From Arthonia radiata (Eukaryota > Ascomycota > Arthoniomycetes > Arthoniales > Arthoniaceae), in NCBI GenBank assembly GCA_002989075.1, contig PSQN01000002.1, positions 124,001 through 188,000 of the forward strand: DNA of 64,000 bases, read 5' to 3'. The notes below the pieces were generated by a model that was not told the origin of the DNA, did no database searches, and was given only the letters and a program-made list of their open reading frames with translations. Positions 90 to 37,400 of this stretch are shown here, in pieces. How positions within the stretch are numbered: position 1 is the stretch's first letter; every line of letters begins with the position of its first letter. Made by a program: the position numbers and the translations under genes.

Positions 90-2870
90 ATGGATATAGA
101 ATACGGCCAGCGCGTGTCGGATCGTATTACGAACACTACTTACGGGAACTCAGGTAATTCTGGGAGTATCCAGACGCTCTATTGTGTTGCTTCAAACCCA
201 CCACCGGGCAGCTAGTGCGCCGGCGTTAACTTCAGATGCTTTGTTTGACACCCGAATCAATTTCAGAGGAGGCTGTACTGACAAATCGTTTTTAGGTAAA
301 TCAAAGAGCATCCACACATTCTATGCTGTAGCTTCGGGGATACTGTTAGGCAGCTAGCGCGCTGGCGTTGTTTCCAAATGTCTGGTTTGGACTAGAACTT
401 CAGAAGGCTCTGTGCTGACGTCTTGTTTCTAGGGGACGACGACATGAGCTCCTTCTACTCAGAACCTAGAGCAATGTTTGAGAGCCTGGGAGCTGACCAG
501 TCGGGAGGAATGCCCATTACCTCTTTCCTCACCGCTGAAGAGGTCCGCTCCACTTCGAACTCTAGGTCAACAAAGATCTTCGAATCCTGGGAGCGCCTAC
601 GTGCCATCGTCGAGAGACATGAGGCGACTATCAGAAAGCGCTGGTTGAAGCGCTCCAGAGATCAGCGGAGAAGGATGCTTCTTGACGCCTGGCCAGGAAT
701 GGTCAGCTCCCATCGCCCTGACTTCTAGGCACTCAAGCAGTCTGGACGGCCGCAGCCCAGCAGCAGAGAGGCCTACATGTGGCCTTACATCAATACGGAC
801 GACCTTTTGCAGCCGAACAGCTTCTTGATATTTGTCAACTCCAGGGCTCGCAACCAGCCGTACGAGTTTGCTCGGGCTGATATCAACGCTTGTCATTTCA
901 GCATTACCTCAAGAGCAATCGCTCCAGGCTTCCTTGATGAACATGTTATCATGTTCACTGGCAGAACAGCCCCAGATACCTATGGTCAGCTCATCGCTTG
1001 GGAGGATCATCGAGATGCCTTCGACTGGACGCACACACAGCGCGGTGCACATCCAGGTGAGGGCCTTCTCATTCTTGAAATCCAGGAACGCTTGTACGAC
1101 TTTCTGGTGAAGTGCTGCGAAGATCTCTTGTGCGACATGAGCGCAGACCTTCAGCATGGACTGGACGTCCCAGTCAAACCCGAGCCACCCTCACTCGCTA
1201 GCGGAGAGACGGGCCTGAGATTATTGGCCACAGCTGCTGCTGAAGCATCATACCGATTACCTGCTAGTTTGGACCTGCGGCGTCTGGAGTCCATCGTGAG
1301 AGCGAAAGCGCTCGCTGCTGAAGATCACGTTTGGTCGCTTCGGGAAGACCCGGGTTACTTCGCAGCCACACTGCTGGAGATGAAGGAGCATAGACAGGAG
1401 ATGATCCTTGACACGAGAAAGAAGCAACACCCTGTCGTTGCTAATCCAGCTCAAAATCAGATACTGTGGGAACGCGTCATCAAAAACAGTATCATAGGCG
1501 CATTGGCTCAAGTCGACATGTGGAATGCACTCTGCGAGCGCGTGAAGGATCTCCGCCAGCTGCAGAACAAATACGCAGCAAGCATAGCTCCTGAGCGAGA
1601 TTTGCCCGAAGAGTACGCATTCGCATTTTACACCCTGTACCATCACCTTACGCAAATGTCGAAGGGTCCAATTGGCAGTCTCAAGGTCGGACTTTTTGCA
1701 TCTCCACCATTAAGGCCATGTTTCGAGCGATTACCCCAGGAACCACTGGGCACCATGATCCGGGTCCAGAAGCGGCAATCGTTGACTAAGGACAAGTGCA
1801 GAGATGAACTGGTTTGGATTGCCATGACGCTCTTCGACGAAAATCAATTGCATCTTGCAGGGCTCAATACGCTCATGGACGAGCTAGAGAGGCTGCAAGA
1901 GAGTGACCCCAGAGCAAAGGAGCTAATTTCGGCTTGGGTGGCTGAGCAAGTCTCGGACTTGTCCGTGCTGTCGCAGTGTCGACATCAAATAGATCTTTAC
2001 CAACCGTGGGCAGCGAGTTTCGAAACAGAGATGGCTGAAAAGCAAGAGGAGATCAACAAGGATTACCTCCGCACTCAGAAGTCAGTTGAGACTTACTTTC
2101 AGAAGGGCATAAGCCGCGCAATCGCATCTCTCGGAGCTCCCACGGAGGGTCGCTTTCGTTACCCGCTCGACAAACGAAGGACACGCGAGAATGTCGAGGC
2201 GATTCGACGCGCAGAGAGCAACCTAGACGAGTTTTGGCGGGAGCTCGACAGAAGCCTTCAAGACGCATACGCTAAGTCACCTCGCGTACGCGCTCTGCTA
2301 TCCCAGCGGATGTTGCAGAGAACTCCGGAGTGGCGCGAGCCAGCCAAACCTCGCACTGCGACGTCAACGATCCAAGACGCGGATGAGTTGAACAAACAGC
2401 TTTCGGAGCTCCTCTTTGATCTCGAACAGCAAACCAAGCGCACTGTCGATCGCAGTGTGCCTGCACAGCCGGCACCAAAACTAAAAACACAAAGTGCAAC
2501 CCTAAAAACGAATGTACCAGAAGCAGCGCCTGAGCCGATCGAGGCAGATCCGCAGCCTACCTTTCATGTCGACAAGCGTGCTCTAAAGGCCTTCAAGACC
2601 CTTTTCTTCGTGCCATCTGCCAGCTCGCAGCCTGGCGAAGTCGCATGGCCTGACTTTCTCCACGCAATGCTCTGCACGGGCTTCGCTGCTGAGAAGCTGT
2701 ACGGCTCAGTCTGGCAATTTACGCCAACTGAACTTGATGTGGAACGTAGTATCCAAATTCACGAGCCACATCTCAGCGGCAAGCTCCCATTTATGAGGGC
2801 GAGACGGTTCGGTCGACGTTTGAACAGGGCGTATGGATGGCGCGGCGAAATGTTTGCGCTTGCAACATGA
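90..2870 (+). CDS. Ascomycete-specific protein of unknown function, split by an introner pair and by one in-frame TAG
   Basis: The protein resembles a large, function-unknown Pezizomycotina family: an N-terminal segment around ESWERLRAIVERHEATI, then RPDF, MWPYIN, and a C-terminal block near YGSVWQFTPTELDVERSI and RRFGRRLNRAYGW. I recognise the family from memory only and no function is known to me. An ATG at 90 opens a 64-base exon (MDIEYGQRVSDRITNTTYG...) that joins in phase to 433 when 154-432 is removed. The frame then runs to 2870 but meets TAG at 726-728 right after HRPDF and stays open beyond it, so a single nonsense change is the simplest reading. Alternatively a 54-base in-frame intron (702-755, GTCAGC...CTGAC...CAG) could remove the stop together with the conserved RPDF motif. 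Residues 400-600 are charged and helical; the region before the C-terminal block is low complexity. Confidence 0.65.
154..295 (+). mobile_element. Introner-like element, copy 1 (first of a tandem pair)
   Basis: A 142-base intron-shaped unit. It begins GTAATTC after TCAG, has a 5' block GAGTATCCA, a central block GGCAGCTAGTGCGCCGGCG, then GGCTGTACTGAC (branch-site-like CTGAC) and ends TTTTTAG. The same ordered blocks occur at 296-432, 15063-15202 and, on the other strand, 33954-34099. Retention would put a TAG in frame at the central block. It abuts copy 2 with no base between them. Confidence 0.8.
296..432 (+). mobile_element. Introner-like element, copy 2 (second of a tandem pair)
   Basis: A 137-base unit that starts GTAAATC directly after the AG that ends copy 1 and ends TTTCTAG at 432. 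It carries the family blocks GAGCATCCACAC, GGCAGCTAGCGCGCTGGCG and TTCAGAAGGCTCTGTGCTGAC. By eye it matches copy 1 at well over half of positions, including all splice signals. Removing both copies fuses codon parts G and GG and keeps the protein in frame. Confidence 0.8.
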
Positions 2871-3295: not shown

Positions 3296-5933
3296 TTAAC
3301 GTTCTCTGGTCCGCCTGCTCGCTCGCTCTCGATAGAAGGGCGGATGATCGGACGATGGGCCCTGCCTCTGCTCGATGCTAGACTTATGTCTCCGCTGCTT
3401 ACGAAGCTTTTTCGTGTGTTCGAACAGACTGTGCGTGTCTTCGGTCGTCAACTCTTCAAGTAAGACGATGTAGTCGAGATCTTCTGGAGATCTCTCCCAA
3501 GCTATATCGTAGTGTCTTAGCGTTTCGGTGTCGATGTCGTCGCGATGGATTTTAGGAAAGACTGGAGCATCGTTCAGACTTTCTGAGGAGACTTCGCGTT
3601 TCTTGCCTTTGTCACTAGGCCCCTCAAGGGTGGGCTTCTTATTGATTTTGTCGTATTCGATCTTGTCCCCCACGGGTTTCCAAGTTATGATGCCTGGCTT
3701 TGCCATATCTGATTCAACGCGCTCAAAATATTTTTGCCTCTCTTCATCTGTCATTTTAGCTATGTCTCTTCGAACTCGCTCAAGGTACTCCTGGTCCTCC
3801 TTGTCCTTCTTCTCCTTTGCTAGCAACTTCTCTTTCTCCTTCAGCTCCCATATACCAAAGTCTTCTCCTTCTTTGCGTCTCTCTTCTTTAGCTTCTTCCT
3901 TGCGTCTCTGCTCTTTAGCTTCTTCCTCAGCCTCATGGATGATGCGCTCCTCTTTCTTCTTACGCTTTCCCTCTTTAGCGTCTTCTTCCGCCTCCTTTAT
4001 CATACGCTCGCGATCCGTCTTCTTTGCTTGTTCTCCTTCCTCGGCATCTCTGATCATGCGCTTGCGATCCTCTTGCTCAGCCTCACGGACGATGCGCTTG
4101 CGATCTTCTCTAGCCTCTCTCCTAGCCTCACGGATGATGCGCTCGCGCTCTTCATTCTTCCTGCGCTTTTCCACTTTGGCGTCCTCTGGCGCCTCCGTGA
4201 TGAACAGCTCGCGGTCCTTCTTCTTTTGCTGTTTCTCCTCCTCGGCGTCCCTAATCATGCGCTTGCGATCCTCCTCGTCCTTCTCCTTCCTCTCCTTCTC
4301 TTTTCGTTTCACCTCCTCGACGATCTCCTTCCTCACCCTGCTGAGAAGTGTAGGGTTATCTCCGACTTCAGATTCTGATGAGCTTGGTGATGGCGAACTG
4401 TCCACGTTTGACGCATCTTCTCCCTCTTCGTAATTTTTGGGGATCGCAAACAATGACAGCTGTTCCATATGCTGGCCTACGTGCCGGGCGAACGCTTTTT
4501 CGGTCACAATAGGCGATCGATCATGGAATCTGCTGCCGCTGTCTGGTAGAGCTCGCACAGACCGGCTCTGAGTCTCGTTCCATTGGTCGCAAAATGGGCA
4601 CATCGATGCCGTGAGCACCGGTCTTGAGGCACTCGTGCTTGAAAGCAGTGCTTCTTGTTCTGACTCTGCGAAATGGCCAGAATGCGCCCGACTCAGGTGG
4701 AAGCTAAGGTCCTTCTTGCCATTATGCATTTCTGAACATAGCGGACAAGCGTATGAGGCACGATGCTCGTAGATATCATGCGCTTGCCGGTCACGCCGGC
4801 GGTCAAAGACTTGGAAGCCGCAGTCGTTGAAGAGACACACGTAAGGTCGAAGATCCCGATAGACATGCTTCCTATGGACGATTGCATTAGTAAGCAGGAC
4901 TTTCAGACTTGCGGACCGGAACTCTTACTTCCAAGCATGCCGGCGTATGAAGATGATGTTGTGGCATAGTGTGCACTCCGCTCCTTTGGTACCCAGCTCT
5001 GGAGGTGGTGGAGGGATGCTCATCTTTGTTGCATAGTCCGTCCCAAATTCCGTTGCGAAGTCCGTGTCCGAGGGGGCGACATCCGAGCCAGTGTCTTGAA
5101 CAACCCCGAACTTCGCTTTTTGATTCCCATGGTACGTTGTCGGAGCAGTCTCCTCTTCTAGCTGCCCTTGATCCTTTAGTGGTTGGCCAAGCTTCGCGAC
5201 ATGTTCCTCTCGAGTCCGGAAATATTGCCTTCGCCGCGAATTGGCAAGCCCCAGCCGATCGGCCAGCCATGGTGAAGACTCAAGCTTGGGAAATTTCATC
5301 GTTGCATTGTCGACGTCAGGACGCGTGTACCACTGCGGCAAGGCCAGGACTCGTTTCCAAGGATCTCGATCTGGGTTGTGTCTGATCAAAGCAGTTATCT
5401 TCAGCAGGTTTGTGATTGTCATGGCGATTGTATCGAAGAGATCGGCATAGTCCTCATTATCTAGATCGTCCTCATTTTGAGTGTTCTCGTTATCAAACGG
5501 TTCAACCAGATATTGCAGAGACTCCTCGAGCTCATCAAGTAGATGGAGGACCTCGTCTGTGATGTCCGACTGGCCAAGCCGAGCATCTAGTGAGCTTTTA
5601 CCTGATCATGCATGTCAGTATCAGCAGCACGCTTCTGATGGGTACTGAAGACATTGAGCCTCGTTGAAGGCGCGAGTGAGCTGCTGTAGTACGCTGCAGC
5701 ATCAGACGACGATTAACAACACGACTGTGAGTTGATCAAGCAGGGAACAACGTCTTCGACTTACCTTTATGAAGCGCGCCGATGTTTCCTGCCCAGAGCT
5801 TGAACCGTCCCAGGCTATCCTCAAGCGCTACGCGCCTGGTCGTATCCTGAACATCGATAGCTTTTCTGAACAGAAGCATACTGGCTTCAGCGCTACAAGC
5901 GATAGTGTTACCGGAAGTGGAGGCCGTAGCCAT
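3296..5933 (-). CDS. Fungal C2H2 zinc-finger protein with long charged helical region
   Basis: Three exons: 5933-5765, 5601-4929 and 4871-3296. The joins restore HKGKSSLDARLG and KKHVYRDLRPYVCLF. The N-terminal part resembles fungal proteins that begin with a helical LGRFKLWAGNIGALHKG region. Cys/His pairs follow (CTLCHNI, CLFNDCGF...H...H, CPLC...HLSRAH, CPFC) and then the hallmark FARHVGQHMEQLSLFAIP. The C-terminal half is almost entirely Glu/Lys/Arg, built of imperfect repeats of RKRMIRDAEEE type, and probably forms a long single helix or coiled coil. Such proteins are common in Pezizomycotina; a nuclear or signalling role is guessed, not known. The first intron is 163 bases, long for this window, and may be a decayed introner. 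Confidence 0.8.
5602..5764 (-). repeat. Long first intron of the zinc-finger gene, possible decayed introner
   Basis: 163 bases, GTAAGTCG to GATCAG on the minus strand. Its 3' part holds CAGAAGCGTGCTGCTGATACTGAC, loosely like the AGAAGCGGCTGTACTGAC of the copy at 15063-15202, and its middle holds GCAGCTCACTCGCGCC. The 5' block is not convincing. Family membership is tentative. Confidence 0.3.
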
Positions 5934-14853: not shown

Positions 14854-15608
14854 ATGCGGTCAATCAATTACATAGATTTTCAAGATTCAATCGAGCGAGT
14901 CCGGAGCTCTCTCACACCAATGAATCAAACAATCATCGATCGAATCTCTCAGCATGTACGACATCCAAACATATGGCCGCTTTCATTACGACCCAACAAT
15001 GGTGTTCGCGCCGCAATCATTGATCCTACGCCACCGCTTCCATCAGCCGTGTTCACTTTCAGGTAAGCCAGAGTGTCCACGTATCTTGCTGCTTTTTCTT
15101 GAAAGCGGCCATTCGCGACTGGCGCGTCGGCGTCGTCTTACAGCCCTTTTTTGAAACAGAAATGAACTTTAGAAGCGGCTGTACTGACACTGTGTTTCCA
15201 AGGCCTGTCAACGCGCCACAGTACCCGCACCCTCGCAAAGAAGCCACCGGCGCTAGAAGCAAAGCTCCGCCTTCCAAGCTCAAATTCGGGATGGAAGCCG
15301 TTTCGAATAGACCAGTGGCCCCCGTACCCACCGCGCCCAATGATGCTCTGCCCAAATGCGGTGATCTCGAACTCTATATACCAACGCTCAAACTGCCGGC
15401 GCCAAAGTTCCCGACCTTCACCACTTTCTCTAGTCACACCTGGGTATCGAAAGACGCTACGTTCGTTCCTTCCGGAACACCAGGAATCGCGAAACGTACG
15501 AGAACCTCCGAATCTCCGGCGTCTCTTGAGCGAGCTCTCAAAGCGATCCGTCTTGACCCCGACGCCCGCTCACAGCAACAGCGACGTCGACATCAAGGCT
15601 GTTCATGA
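14854..15608 (+). CDS. Orphan protein carrying a single introner-like intron
   Basis: Exons 14854-15062 and 15203-15608 encode 204 residues (MRSINYIDFQDSIERV...QQQRRRHQGCS). The splice joins AG|G to an Arg codon and continues PVNAPQYPHP, so the frame is kept; retention gives TAA immediately. The protein is Pro/Lys-rich, with a helical N-terminus (SIERVRSSLTPMNQTIIDRI) and a basic C-terminus. No known domain is recognised. The intron is 140 bases and belongs to the introner-like family, which is the strongest feature of the gene. Confidence 0.5.
15063..15202 (+). mobile_element. Introner-like element, copy 3 (single)
   Basis: 140 bases from GTAAGCC to TTTCCAAG. It shares with copies 1 and 2 the 5' block GAGTGTCCAC...TGCTGCTT, the central CTGGCGCGTCGGCGTCGT and the 3' block TTTAGAAGCGGCTGTACTGAC. 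It sits in an unrelated gene 14.6 kb away, which makes it a dispersed intron family, not a local duplication. Confidence 0.78.
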
Positions 15609-29559: not shown

Positions 29560-30232
29560 ATGGCAGCCTCCGACACAGTCATGCAACCGCTAACATCGCT
29601 CTCCCCAGCTCTTGCCCTCGAACAGCCCACCGCCGCTGCCTCCATGCCTTCCGAGCCCGCACCCACCACGAGCGCCATCACCGCCGCCAACCCCACAACC
29701 TCCAACAAACCCTTCGCAGACATTCAAGACCCCACCCGCCGCATCGCAGCCTACAACAGCCTCTACAACACTCTCGCCGGCAGCGTCGCACTCGTCACGA
29801 CCTACGACTACGACGATAGGCGCTTCGCCTACCGTGAATTCCTTGGGTACGTCTTCGCTTTCCTCCAGCCACCACACTCACACGTAACAATTGCTAACAA
29901 ACAAACACAGCACCACAGACTCCAACGGATCCCTCGATGCCGACGACGCCGTCCGCGAGCGCGACTGGCTGTCCACAGAGATGAGGGCACATCGCGCCAC
30001 GGACCCAGATGCGTGCGCGCAAGGCAATCAGTTCCTGAAGGACACCGGCATCTTGCTGTTGGTGCACTCGGCCGTCGATCAGCTGCTGGATGATCTGAAT
30101 ACGACACGCGAGGATTGGGATTCGGGCGTGCGCGGGGCTGTGGTTGAGAAGTTCCGCAAGCTGTTGATGGAGACGAAGGTGCTGATGGACAAGGTGGAGA
30201 ATGGGAAGGACGCTATGAGTGTGGCTGAGTGA
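29560..30232 (+). CDS. Conserved-looking fungal protein of unknown function
   Basis: Two exons, 29560-29846 and 29911-30232, joined through a 64-base intron (GTACGT...TTGCTAAC...ACACAG) that keeps the frame at FLG|TTDSNGS. About 202 residues: an Ala/Thr/Pro-rich lead, then RIAAYNSLYNTLAGSVALVTTYDYDDRRFAYREFLG and a helical C-terminus (LLLVHSAVDQLLDDLN, VVEKFRKLLMETKVLMDKV). No named domain recognised. A 40-base CT-rich tract precedes the ATG, a common feature of fungal promoters. Confidence 0.65.
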
Positions 30233-30281
30233 GGTGGAGCAGAGTCTCGGAGTCGATGGGGTTCTAAGAAACCTGCAGGTT

Positions 30282-31152
30282 GGGCAACGTGGGAGTGCTG
30301 ACCGAAATATGGAGGCTCTAAAGTCCGAAAAGAACCAGTGGGTTAGTTGATAGATCCGCTGTGAACGATTGCAATATAACATCTTGCTGAAACCGAGATG
30401 AGAACTTGTTTGCACAGCGCGTAGCCTCGTGAGCTTCTGGTGTTGCTCTGCTGGAAATTGAGCCGCGCCGGAGTGCCGGCACAATTCTGAGGGTTCTGAA
30501 GCCGGAACAAGACATGTGTGGTGGCTGATAGGTTGCGCCTACACGATTGCAATGAAATGTCTTGCGGAAATTGAGATGCCAATTGACTTGAAGCAGAACC
30601 ACAATGCCGCTGAGGGTCTGAGAATGCTTTAGATAATGCCGCGCCGGAGTGCTAGCTGAGTTCTGGAGAGTTTGGAGCCCGAACATGACCTGTGGGACAG
30701 CTGACAGATTCTGCCCGGACAATCACAATGAGACTCTGTACTAAAAGCAAAATGACATCGACTTAGAGCAAAGCCAAGGCCCTGATGAAGGTCTGAGAAA
30801 ACCGTAAGCTGGGCTGCGCCAGAGTGCTGGCTGATTTCTGAGGGTTTTGAAGCCGGAACAGAATATGTGTGGTAGCTGATAGATTGCACCTACACGATTG
30901 CAATGAGAACTCTTGCTCAATCCCAAATGACATCGACTTACAGCAGAACCACAGCCCTGGTGAAGGTCTGAGAAAGCCATAGTTTGAGCCGCGCCAGAGT
31001 GCCGGCCGGGTTTTTCAGGGTCGGGAACCAACGACCAACCTGAACGTCAGCTGATACATCTCGTCTAGACACGTACAATGAGATATCTCGCTGAATGTGA
31101 GACAAAGACTTGATACATTCTGCACAGCGCGTAGCCTTGTGAGCTTCTGGTG
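30282..31152. repeat. Tandem array of five 175-bp units
   Basis: Units begin near 30282, 30462, 30638, 30813 and 30988, so the period is 175-180 bases. Diagnostic blocks recur in each: GCCGCGCCGGAGTGC, GAGGGTTTTGAAGCCGGAAC, GGTAGCTGATAG and CTACACGATTGCAATGA. Middle units end with GACATCGACTTA...GCCCTG.TGAAGGTCTGAGAAA. The first and last instead share a 31-base end (30412-30442 and 31122-31152) with GCACAGCGCGTAGCC. The period is not a multiple of three, so the minus-strand open frames across it change frame and are not genes. Confidence 0.85.
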
Positions 31153-33775: not shown

Positions 33776-34331
33776 CTATGCCTTTTGCTGGGCTCGCACA
33801 TTCGAGTGTCCTTGCAACGTCATGGACTGGGTATCTTCACTTGTGGATCGGTGTCTAGCAAGTGATACTCCGACGTGCTCTAACATGCTCGGGCAATGTC
33901 TAGCGATAGCAAGGGGGCGTTGCGGCTCAGAATGTTGTGTGCTGACATGTATCCTGAGAAGGTAGAGGATGTCAGCAGAGCCGCCTGTGAAGTCTGTTCA
34001 ATTTTCAAACAAAGTCCTTTGGTACGACGCCAGCAATCTGGCTGCCTGGGTAAAATTTCGCGGGAATAAAACGTAATGTATGGATGATCTGAGACTTACC
34101 TGAGCAGAAAGGGTCGACACAGTCTCTCATAGAGCTTCTTCAGGTCTGAAACAGAGCAGTTTTGGACAGCGCTAGCGCGTCAACTAAGAGAGCGTGGATC
34201 TCGAGGTGCGGAACAAGACATGTGGGTGCTCTAAGACTTGCTGTTCGCTTGATAACGTGGATGTGGGATAAGTCAATTTCAAGTCAAACGCCTCATTGAG
34301 CACATCTAGGTCTAGTCCGCGTATCTGTACA
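33776..34331 (-). CDS. Orphan gene fragment split by a tandem introner pair
   Basis: On the minus strand an open stretch (34331-34242) reading LDLDVLNEAFDLKLTYPTSTLSSEQ can be joined to 33953-33776 (IHVSTQHSEPQRPLAIARHC...NVRAQQKA) by removing two adjacent introner-like units; CA|G forms one Gln codon and the frame runs to TAG at 33776-33778. No ATG lies in the first stretch, so a further 5' exon must exist or the gene is partial. If only the second unit were spliced, the tail of the first would be read in frame as SDLKKLYERLCRPFLL. Function unknown. The gene model is tentative; the intron signals are better supported than the protein. Confidence 0.35.
33954..34099 (-). mobile_element. Introner-like element, copy 5 (second of a tandem pair)
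   Basis: 146 bases, minus strand, GTAAGTC to CCTTCTCAG. It carries ATCATCCATACATT, GGCAGCCAGATTGCTGGCGTC, TTTGTTTGA and ACTTCACAGGCGGCTCTGCTGAC, in the same order as copies 1 and 2. It starts directly after the AG that ends copy 4. Confidence 0.75.
34100..34241 (-). mobile_element. Introner-like element, copy 4 (divergent, first of a tandem pair)
   Basis: 142 bases on the minus strand, from GCAAGTC (a GC donor of GC-AG type) to TTTCTGCTCAG. The 5' block GAGCACCCACATGTCTTG matches GAGCATCCACACATTCT of copy 2; the centre has GACGCGCTAGCGCTG. The branch region is changed (CTGTGTCGAC). It is the most diverged copy and is assigned partly on its 142-base length and its exact abutment to copy 5. 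Confidence 0.55.
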
Positions 34332-34475: not shown

Positions 34476-37400
34476 CTAGGTCCCATCAAGCTGAGCCTCG
34501 AACTCGTCATGCACCTTCGAGGCCGGCTCATTCGTCTTCAGTCGCTCCAGTTGGCTGCTGACATGGTTGGCCAAATGGCTGTCAGCATCCTTCATTCGCT
34601 TCATTGCCTCTTCGTCCACGTATCCGACAGAAGTCCCACGCACGTGAGCGTCAGTGCCGTTCTTTTTGTGGCCGTTGAGAGCATCACCCGCTTTGCCAAA
34701 TGCATCTCGATCCGTGTCGTCAACAGCAACGCCATCCTGCGGAGTCTTGATGGACGATCTTCGAAGCAATTTCGGAGTCTGTGGTCTGCTGTCGATCGAT
34801 TTGCGTCTAGCAAATACATCATCAAAGTAATGAGCAGCGGCCGTAGCGGGTGTGCGTGGGGTTTGCGGCATGCGACAGCTGACGCCGGTGTCGTGGATCA
34901 ATTTCGCAATTAATCCGGTCCAGCCGCATTGGTGGCTTGCTCCTAGGCCTCGCCCGGTATCACCATCGAAATATTCGTAGAACCAGATATTGTCTCGCCA
35001 GTGAGGATCCTGGAAAGATGTCAGCACAATGCGTTCTGGGTTCTGCTATCAGAACGGGCGTGTTTAGACAGCGCCTCCTATTCAGCAACGGAGAGCCGGG
35101 CAAGAAACAATAGAAGAAACAAGGTGAAGGCTGTGAACTTACCTGGTCTAGCAGTGCATGATCATTGTGCACAGCGCGCTTGCCATCAACGTTGCGTGCA
35201 TAGAGATGCTGCAGTCGATGCTGGATCTCTTCCGCAACGTGACCTAAGTGCATCTCATCACCAGACCCAGTTGGGCACTCGACCTTGAAGTTCTCGCCGT
35301 AGAAGGTGTAGAACCGCTGAAGAGATTCTATCAGGAGCATGTTGACAGCAAACCAGATTGGACCTCTCCAATTGCTGTTGCCACCGAAGAGGCCACTGTC
35401 CGATTCGCCAGGTAGGTAGGCGACTTCGAATTTCTGTCCATTGACATCCATCGAGTAGGGGTGGTCTTTGTGATAGCGGGAGAGAGATCGGATGCCGTAT
35501 TCGCCCAAAAACTCCTTCTCATCGAGAAGTCTGTGCAGGATGCGACGAAGACGCTCTTCCGTGACAAAAGACAACAGCAAGCGCGAGTCCTTACCCCTGC
35601 GTGTCAAGCTGGCAATGTTTCGCTTCGCAACAGCGCTGTTGTTTTCAATAAACCATTCGAGACGGCGCTTGAAATTGGGGAACTGATCAATGACCTCAGG
35701 CTCCAGCGTCAACGTGGCGAACATCGGCACCAAGCCAACTAGAGATCGAACTGGCAACTGCTTAGAGTAAGGGCCTCCCCAAGTGATTGCATCGTAGTAG
35801 AAGCCATCTTCTTCGCTCCAGAGTGATTGTTCATCCTTGCCAATGCGGTACTGCATGGCATCGCTGATGTGAATGAAGTGCTCAAAGAACTTTGATGCAA
35901 TGTCTTCGTAGATGCGGCGGTGCTTGGCTAGCTCAAGCGCGATATTCAGCATGCCCAAAGAGTAAAATCCCATCCAGCCCGTGCTGTCAGCTTGCTCGAG
36001 AGAGCCACCGGTTGGTAGCGGGTCAGAGCGGTTGAAGATACCGATGTTGTCCATCCCCAAGAACCCACCCTCAAAGACGTTCTTGTTATTGGAGTCTTTG
36101 CGGTTGACCCACCAGGTGAAATTAAGTAACAATTTGTGGAAGACGCGCTCGAGGAAGTCAATGTCCTCGCGCCCATACATCTTGCGCTCCATCTTGAACG
36201 TCCTGAAAGTTGACCAGGCATGAACAGGTGGGTTCACGTCCCCAAAGTTCCACTCATATGCTGGCAGCTGACCATTGGGATGCAGATACCACTCGCGAGT
36301 GAAGAGATCAAGCTGCTTCTTCGCGAAGTCAGGGTCGATCATTGTCAGTGGTAGGCAATGGAAGGCTGAGTCCCATGCAGCGAAGAAAGGGTACTCCCAG
36401 GAGTCTGGCATGGACAAGATGTCATCAAGATACATGTGTTTCCAGTGTTCGTTGCGGATGTGTCTGCGGCTCTCTGGCGGTGGAGGTTGGTTCGGGTCGC
36501 CGTTCGCCCACTGATCGTAAACGAAGTGGTAATGCTGCTTACACCACAGCATACCGGATAAAGCTTGTCGTTGCACGTTGCGAAGATCCTGATCCATAGG
36601 CAATGGGCTGACCCGGAAGTAGAAGTCGTCAGCTTCTCCTCGGCGCTGCTCGATGATGTCGTCGAAGAGCTCCTCATCCATGTAGCCATCTGGCTTGATC
36701 TTTGTCAATCGCAGACGTACGACAGCACACTCGCCGGGTGCAACACCGCCGTCTTCGTTGAAAGAGTACCACGCAGCGGACTTCGTGCCCGAGTGAGCAG
36801 GGTTGATAGCAGATCTGTCATGCTTGACCACATAGTTATGGAAAGCATCTTTTGTGTAGTCGACTTTGTTCTTGCCCCAACCGAGCGCTGTGTAGTTGGT
36901 GTCGTTGTCTGTGAACAGCAGCTCAGGCTGGACATCTCGACTGCTATTGCCTACACCCGGCGACGGCGACAATTCGAAGTATCTTGTGCCTAGCTTCTCC
37001 TGCGATGTTTCGATCGCAAGTGGCCCAATAGAATGTGCAGATGGCTTCTTGATGTCATCATAGCCCCAAGCCCATGTGTTGCGAAACCATGTGTGCGGCA
37101 GGATGTGCAGTGGTGCTCGCTCGGGACCACGATTGTAGGCGGTGACCCGGAACAGGAGCTCTTCCTCATCGCCTGACTCCTTCGCCGTCTCGATGAAGAT
37201 GTCCCAGTATCGGTCGTCGTCGAAGAGGCCGGTGTCGAGGATGTTGTACTCGCGCTCTTTTCGTGTCCGCTTGGCGTTGGTGTCGACGAGGTCCTTGTAT
37301 GGAAACTTCCGCTGAGGGTACTTGTAGTTGTACTTCATGTAGGAGTGCTACACACATCAGCATCAATATATACTGTTGGGTTCGCACGACCTACTGAGGG

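Follow-up and report, generated by a model that had tools for sequence, protein, structure and literature searches.

Introner-like elements stacked exactly end to end, and composite elements that recur as units, in a genome of Arthoniomycetes affinity

The origin of new spliceosomal introns has been debated for a long time, and introners of fungi have been reported without the transposon marks that are found elsewhere. Other fungal introner-like elements have been reported to form a stable RNA fold, and recursive, or ratchet, splice points are a feature of long animal introns. In the Dothideomycetes, introner-like elements are described as many alike introns in unrelated genes (PMC4457414). 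The sister stwintrons [D1,2] of Hypoxylaceae and Xylariaceae are complexes of two U2 introns, and in them the inner intron splits the donor of the outer one between bases 1 and 2 (PMC8469720, PMC9024468, PMC12403724). DNA-transposon introners are characterised by terminal inverted repeats and target duplications (PMC9860276; also PMC12403724); PMC12403724 reports ascomycete introner families to be outliers in lacking such duplications.

The elements described here were found in a window, the whole 64,000-nucleotide stretch of DNA that was analysed, and share features with each of these systems. As at ratchet points, an AG|GT contact with a zero-length exon regenerates a donor; unlike ratchet points, the introns involved are ~140 nt long, the points arise where mobile introns abut, and they are known from sequence alone. 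In common with the Dothideomycetes elements, as PMC4457414 presents them, the splice signals are normal and the flanks are not duplicated, whereas exact end-to-end stacking, re-used composites, the lack of a stable RNA fold, a likeness of ~65% between members and an Arthoniomycetes-like host set the present family apart from that account. Two-intron complexes are multiplied as units, as they are in the sister stwintrons according to PMC8469720, PMC9024468 and PMC12403724, but no donor is split here: the window junction and the other 20 intact junctions all read AG|GT. The multiplication of introns is shared with the DNA-transposon introners (PMC9860276); unlike those, the present family has no 2-6-nt flank duplication at 30 edge pairs. 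Introner-like elements are known already, as are stwintrons and ratchet points, and what is apparently new is the exact stacking together with the re-use of fused stacks. This is a limited claim: in the titles, abstract openings and passages of the open-access literature, no description of abutting introner arrays or re-used fused stacks was found, nor was any open-access paper found with both ‘introner’ and ‘Arthoni-’.

Near the start of the window, two units lie head to tail on the forward strand. Unit 1 (154..295, +) is 142 nt long, belongs to the 142-nt class and runs GTAATT...TTTTTAG, with CTGAC at 278-282; unit 2 (296..432, +) is 137 nt long, belongs to the 137-nt class (B) and runs GTAAAT...TTTCTAG, with CTGAC at 415-419. 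Both have GT...AG ends and a CTGAC that begins 18 nt from the 3′ end. Their exact contact, TTTTTAG|GTAAATC, is a zero-length-exon AG|GT junction at 295..296 (+), read directly from the letters and also matched by the junction pattern used for the genome. Unit 1 as a query recovers unit 2 over its length (E=5.8e-10); when the halves are scored separately, unit 1 is A-like in both and unit 2 is B-like in both. The first-pass annotation had proposed two introner-like elements fused head to tail with a zero-length exon, and the exact AG|GT contact, the homology of the units and the recurrence of the arrangement across the genome bear this out. Its claim that removal of unit 1 regenerates a donor also stands, the junction TAG|GTAAAT carrying the second donor whole.

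A further proposal, that joining 153 to 433 links an ATG exon to a conserved protein, is upheld in its alignment and qualified by a stop codon. Exon 1 of the host gene (90..153, +) supplies an ATG and 21 codons plus one base and is placed by homolog alignment; the second exon (433..2870, +) is open to a TGA at 2868-2870, except for a TAG at 726-728. The joined product reads MDIEYGQRV...GNS|GDDD and has 294 fungal homologs at E<=0.001, with 120 listed, and the 153|433 join is gap-free in alignment with 11 of these 120. A start of the form MDLxxG(R/Q) is common to seven of the 11 aligned homologs, and the other four start later. Among the matches listed, the named relatives are mixed and the protein is without assigned function, ‘Ipa protein’ being the source's label for one homolog. 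The in-frame TAG (726-728, +) is codon 120 of the joined protein and falls on a position that varies among homologs; either the gene is disrupted in this assembly or the sequence is in error there. Excision of unit 2 alone also leaves an open stretch, so the open frame by itself is not decisive for the 153|433 join. Since all donors and acceptors of the doublet are intact, the same mRNA would result whether the units were removed one at a time, in either order, or together by a direct 153|433 splice.

The five copies that the first-pass annotation had counted in the window are confirmed as the doublet at 154-432, a single unit at 15063-15202 and a minus-strand doublet at 34241-33954. The single unit (15063..15202, +) runs GTAAGCC...CCAAG, matches the family profile at E=4.9e-17 and, once excised, is flanked by open frame of 443 and 403 nt; it ends in AAG, not TAG or CAG. 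The first unit of the second doublet (34100..34241, -) matches the family profile and has GC instead of GT at its start at 34241, a possible GC-AG intron. Its partner (33954..34099, -) directly abuts it as CTCAG|GTAAGT. The open frame here measures 92/175 nt with both units out and 80/178 nt with the second alone out. A weak family fragment lies nearby at 35014-35075 (-; E=8.7e-5).

Across the genome searched (33.5 Mb, 16 contigs), the doublet and the two single units as queries gave at least 41, at least 45 and at least 42 matches. A pattern built on the first 23 bases of the unit finds 147 unit starts at up to two mismatches (64 with none or one, 83 with two) and none in a reversed control, so the further copies anticipated at the outset do exist. 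There are two main length classes, A of ~142 nt and B of ~137 nt with the typical start GTAAGCCGAA, and further subfamilies. Identity between units at different loci averages 0.655 (53 units, from loci L001-L030 and the window), which marks the family as ageing. Copies sit in unrelated places as introns, with donor, branch-like CTGAC and acceptor, and reading frames close on their removal in several genes; as many alike copies in unrelated genes with intron signals, the family appears to fall within the broad definition of introners, which covers introns that resemble one another over their full width. In ~258 kb of contig C16 (1-188000 and 190001-260000), chosen without regard to the family, matches at E<1e-3 comprise two doublets, one single unit, one 105-nt partial copy and two weak fragments. 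Doublets therefore make up two of the four substantial-match loci in that stretch, one of the two being the window finding itself. Two single units, L024:1491-1627 and L011:1498-1628, combine a B-like 3′ half with a 5′ half that is not B-like, and such part-A/part-B units indicate that recombination between copies or subfamilies does occur.

How often units are stacked was assessed in two ways. A table of L001-L030, L051-L054 and the window, compiled by eye with no script, contains 20 arrays, each of 2-4 units, with 28 junctions between units in all; this sample is biased, because L001-L030 came from the doublet query and L051-L054 were picked as probable arrays. Of these junctions, 21 are intact zero-gap AG|GT contacts: the two in the window (295|296 and 34100|34099), two each in L003 and L009, three in L013 and one each in L004, L005, L010, L012, L016, L018, L029, L030, L051, L052, L053 and L054. 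The seven decayed junctions are those of L002 (CG|GT), L005 (GA|TT), L020 (AT|GC), L027 and L053 (AA|GT), and the contact between the elements X and Y, described below, in both L004 and L009. Weak members of the table are the second units of L012 (19.1 bits) and L029 (18.6 bits) and a remnant ahead of the first full unit of L053 (E=5.5e-4). Arrays are present in 15 of the 30 loci L001-L030. The pattern scan, which was not selected for tandem units, places 14 of the 64 near-consensus starts directly behind an acceptor and branch-like motif, a lower bound because one fixed spacing was tested. The junction pattern itself occurs at 63 places versus two for the reversed control, and a stricter version at 16 versus none; 40 of the 63 pass a filter for branch-like motif and AG, at least two of them judged to be chance or exonic (C14:308376, which is the single unit L026, and C15:255734). 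The statements on stacking made here are based on the 14 of 64 and on the letters read, not on the 40 filtered places. If 147 copies were placed at random, 0.0003 contacts would be expected, or 0.09 if only AGGT sites were available; exact end-to-end contacts exceed random insertion, for which the expectation is far below 1.

Many combinations of neighbours occur: A|A, A|B, A|308, 308|B, A|P, P|Q, unit|X, Y|A, Y|B and those of L013. The B unit is downstream in five of the six B-containing junctions (L001, L002, L004, L010, L020) and upstream in L013. Some of these junctions may be inherited from a single old A|B composite and not stem from independent insertions, and the bias in order makes the number of independent stacking events uncertain. 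Among the genome hits in L001-L030, inspected by eye, no unit is split by another unit.

Some stacks behave as larger elements, and three of these composites, XY (~319 nt), PQ (~285 nt) and a third element of ~308 nt, recur as units at unrelated loci. X and Y are joined in both L004 and L009 (80% and 86% alike), separated at both loci by the same additional, decayed stretch; XY was therefore seemingly copied after its inner junction had died. In L004 the 3′ edge of XY adjoins a B unit; in L009 it adjoins an A unit, and there the 5′ edge adjoins another unit as well. The homology of the two loci fades at the array edges, and a three-unit composite common to both was considered and rejected: only X-Y is common to them, with third units that match at 65%. 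L005 and L016 both carry P fused to Q (87% and 85% alike), and here too the likeness fades at the array edges. Directly 5′ of PQ in L005 is a unit 91% alike to the single unit of L015; matches to one half of PQ alone occur at C2:1480333 (87%) and C1:3343653 (86%). The ~308-nt element has 12 genome hits, nine of which, query included, cover at least 283 nt. In L010 and L009 the unit profile matches both of its halves, while the second half matches partially in L003 and hardly in L051 (E=0.029); the element is probably a fossil doublet. It comes after a unit end in L003, L051, C8:218786 and C16:967656, and sits ahead of a B unit in L010.

The reading frames of host genes bear on how arrays are removed. 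In six of 17 arrays (L003, L005, L009, L010, L013, L016), removal of the whole array leaves the frame open for at least 200 nt to either side, a mark that removal of a single unit never reaches in these six; in the other 11, for some of which little flank was covered, the test does not single out full removal. L005 encodes a glutathione transferase whose join is gap-free against 3ppu and a Coniocarpon protein, and L010 a DUF1776 protein whose join is gap-free against Coniocarpon. In L013, a PNP_UDP_1 match over residues 29-146 spans the join at residue 126. Two of these proteins point to the host group. The nearest named relatives of the L005 protein are from Coniocarpon (78%) and Chrysothrix (72%), and those of the L010 protein from Chrysothrix, Coniocarpon (68% over part) and Alyxoria; all of these are Arthoniomycetes, and the Dothideomycetes, which the first-pass annotation had named as carriers of introner-like elements, are not supported as the host group. 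Frames close on full excision even in L005, with its GA|TT inner junction, and in L009, with its dead X-Y junction. The inner sites would therefore be dispensable at these two loci, where part of the array is apparently handled as one longer intron. A splicing step at the dead inner junctions of L005, L004 and L009 cannot be obligatory, to judge from the lost sites. Removal of the array whole from the mRNA is the best reading of these frames, and recursive splicing of arrays is possible.

Marks of insertion were sought at the outer edges of the elements. The survey used 30 edge pairs, that is, 35 rows minus L018, L020, L023, L029 and L053, whose ends are unclear, and with the ends of L028 and L030 corrected. 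None of the 30 has a duplication of 2-6 nt directly beside the element, and the outer edges favour G|G (18 of 30). Fourteen of the 18 single-element rows are flanked on either side by an open frame of at least 100 nt, so these 14 singles do not adjoin an ordinary intron; the contacts surveyed are those at introner edges. A stable RNA fold was not found in 34 units (mean z 0.17, none below -2), the consensus fold reaches just -2.15 kcal/mol with six pairs, and Rfam gave no match at gathering scores. In alignment A2, columns 57-60 and 126-129 hold a nearly invariant core CAGC and the complementary GCTG just 5′ of the branch site; such near-invariance would neither support nor exclude pairing.

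These observations can be accommodated by an account that we consider somewhat likelier to be right than wrong: an ageing introner family inserts new copies at the edges of resident introners, its arrays are spliced out whole and its composites multiply again. New copies would land precisely on the splice-site edge, 5′ or 3′, of a resident introner and duplicate no target sequence, so that 2-4 introns come to form a seamless array with exons of zero length. The spliceosome would clear an array either (i) stepwise via the AG|GT points, in either order, or (ii) from outermost donor to outermost acceptor. As all of these routes give the same mRNA, the inner sites would be redundant and would decay, leaving longer composite introns. 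Some of these (XY, PQ and the ~308-nt element) have multiplied as units and are stacked with further units. At the insertion step, an excised introner would reverse-splice at an existing splice junction, and reverse transcription and recombination would follow; this combination is the simplest known chemistry for such an insertion. The sequence itself shows the family, its exact stacking, neighbours that are not sisters, composites used again, inner junctions in decay and, in several genes, a frame that closes once the array is fully excised. We infer the aim at edges, the reverse splicing and the splicing route, and the absence of flank duplications, the absence of split units and the singles without contact to an ordinary intron together favour an aim at resident introner edges. 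More doubtful, and put forward tentatively, is the specific proposal that splice-site-directed reverse splicing makes introns grow by seamless stacking, with fused stacks as new, longer mobile introns.

Exact stacking at edges without duplication requires an insertion step that reads splice sites, or the edges of introners, with single-base precision, unless survival bias is responsible, and it offers a way of studying the spread of introns. Mobile modules can be assembled into a longer intron that afterwards recurs as a whole, and the arrays offer natural material for testing recursive splicing between introns this short. If the reverse-splicing reading is true, it shows a path by which short introners become long introns, and it is a signature of spliceosomal, rather than DNA-transposon, intron gain.

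Survival bias is the basis of the alternative that deserves most attention, although we judge it unlikely: insertion would be unaimed, copies beside an existing intron would be harmless and survive, and exonic copies would mostly be purged. The outer G|G preference would fit insertion at any splice-like site, as would an AG|GT edge. Copies in the interior of introns should then survive too, yet no split unit was seen and all counted junctions lie at unit ends; restriction to AGGT sites still yields just 0.09 expected contacts, and none of the 14 singles with long open flanks lies beside an ordinary intron, though that would be an equally safe neighbour. The zero-gap AG|GT contacts, the missing flank duplication and the restriction of contacts to introners would also be explained if excised introners formed circles and cDNA of these entered a resident introner through a single crossover within the unit. 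Integration of this kind predicts reciprocal mosaics. Half-by-half scoring, with a split at one column only, covered 10 pairs, five of them A/B mixed; L001, L004 and L020 contradict both single-crossover predictions, and L002 and L013 contradict one each. In L005, moreover, unit one matches the L015 single and unit two matches P of L016, each as a whole unit, and circle integration seems to us improbable.

Head-to-tail order with exact junctions is equally what local tandem duplication, by slippage or unequal exchange, would produce. Its prediction of related neighbours fails in 19 adjacent pairs (38 tests; 53 units from L001-L030 and the window, with L051-L054 left out): in none of the 38 is a unit's closest relative the one beside it. 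Adjacent units are 0.629 identical compared with 0.655 between loci (permutation 0.976), no more alike than random pairs, and the two units of the window doublet differ in length class. As adjacent units are never nearest relatives, duplication in place is rejected, and we give it very little credence. Least credible of all is the reading of the units as a non-spliced, satellite-like DNA repeat that happens to resemble introns. In its favour, the copies in L027 are without GT...AG edges, and the minus strand of a ~175-nt tandem array in the window gives a weak match to the introner profile (best E=3.6e-7, 960-base search). Against it, arrays and singles interrupt coding frames that close on removal, and the units carry donor, branch-like and acceptor motifs. 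The tandem array, at 30228-31152 with five copies, may itself be a satellite grown from an introner. Elsewhere in the window, short direct repeats of ~38 nt occur at 3912-4273, in apparent coding sequence.
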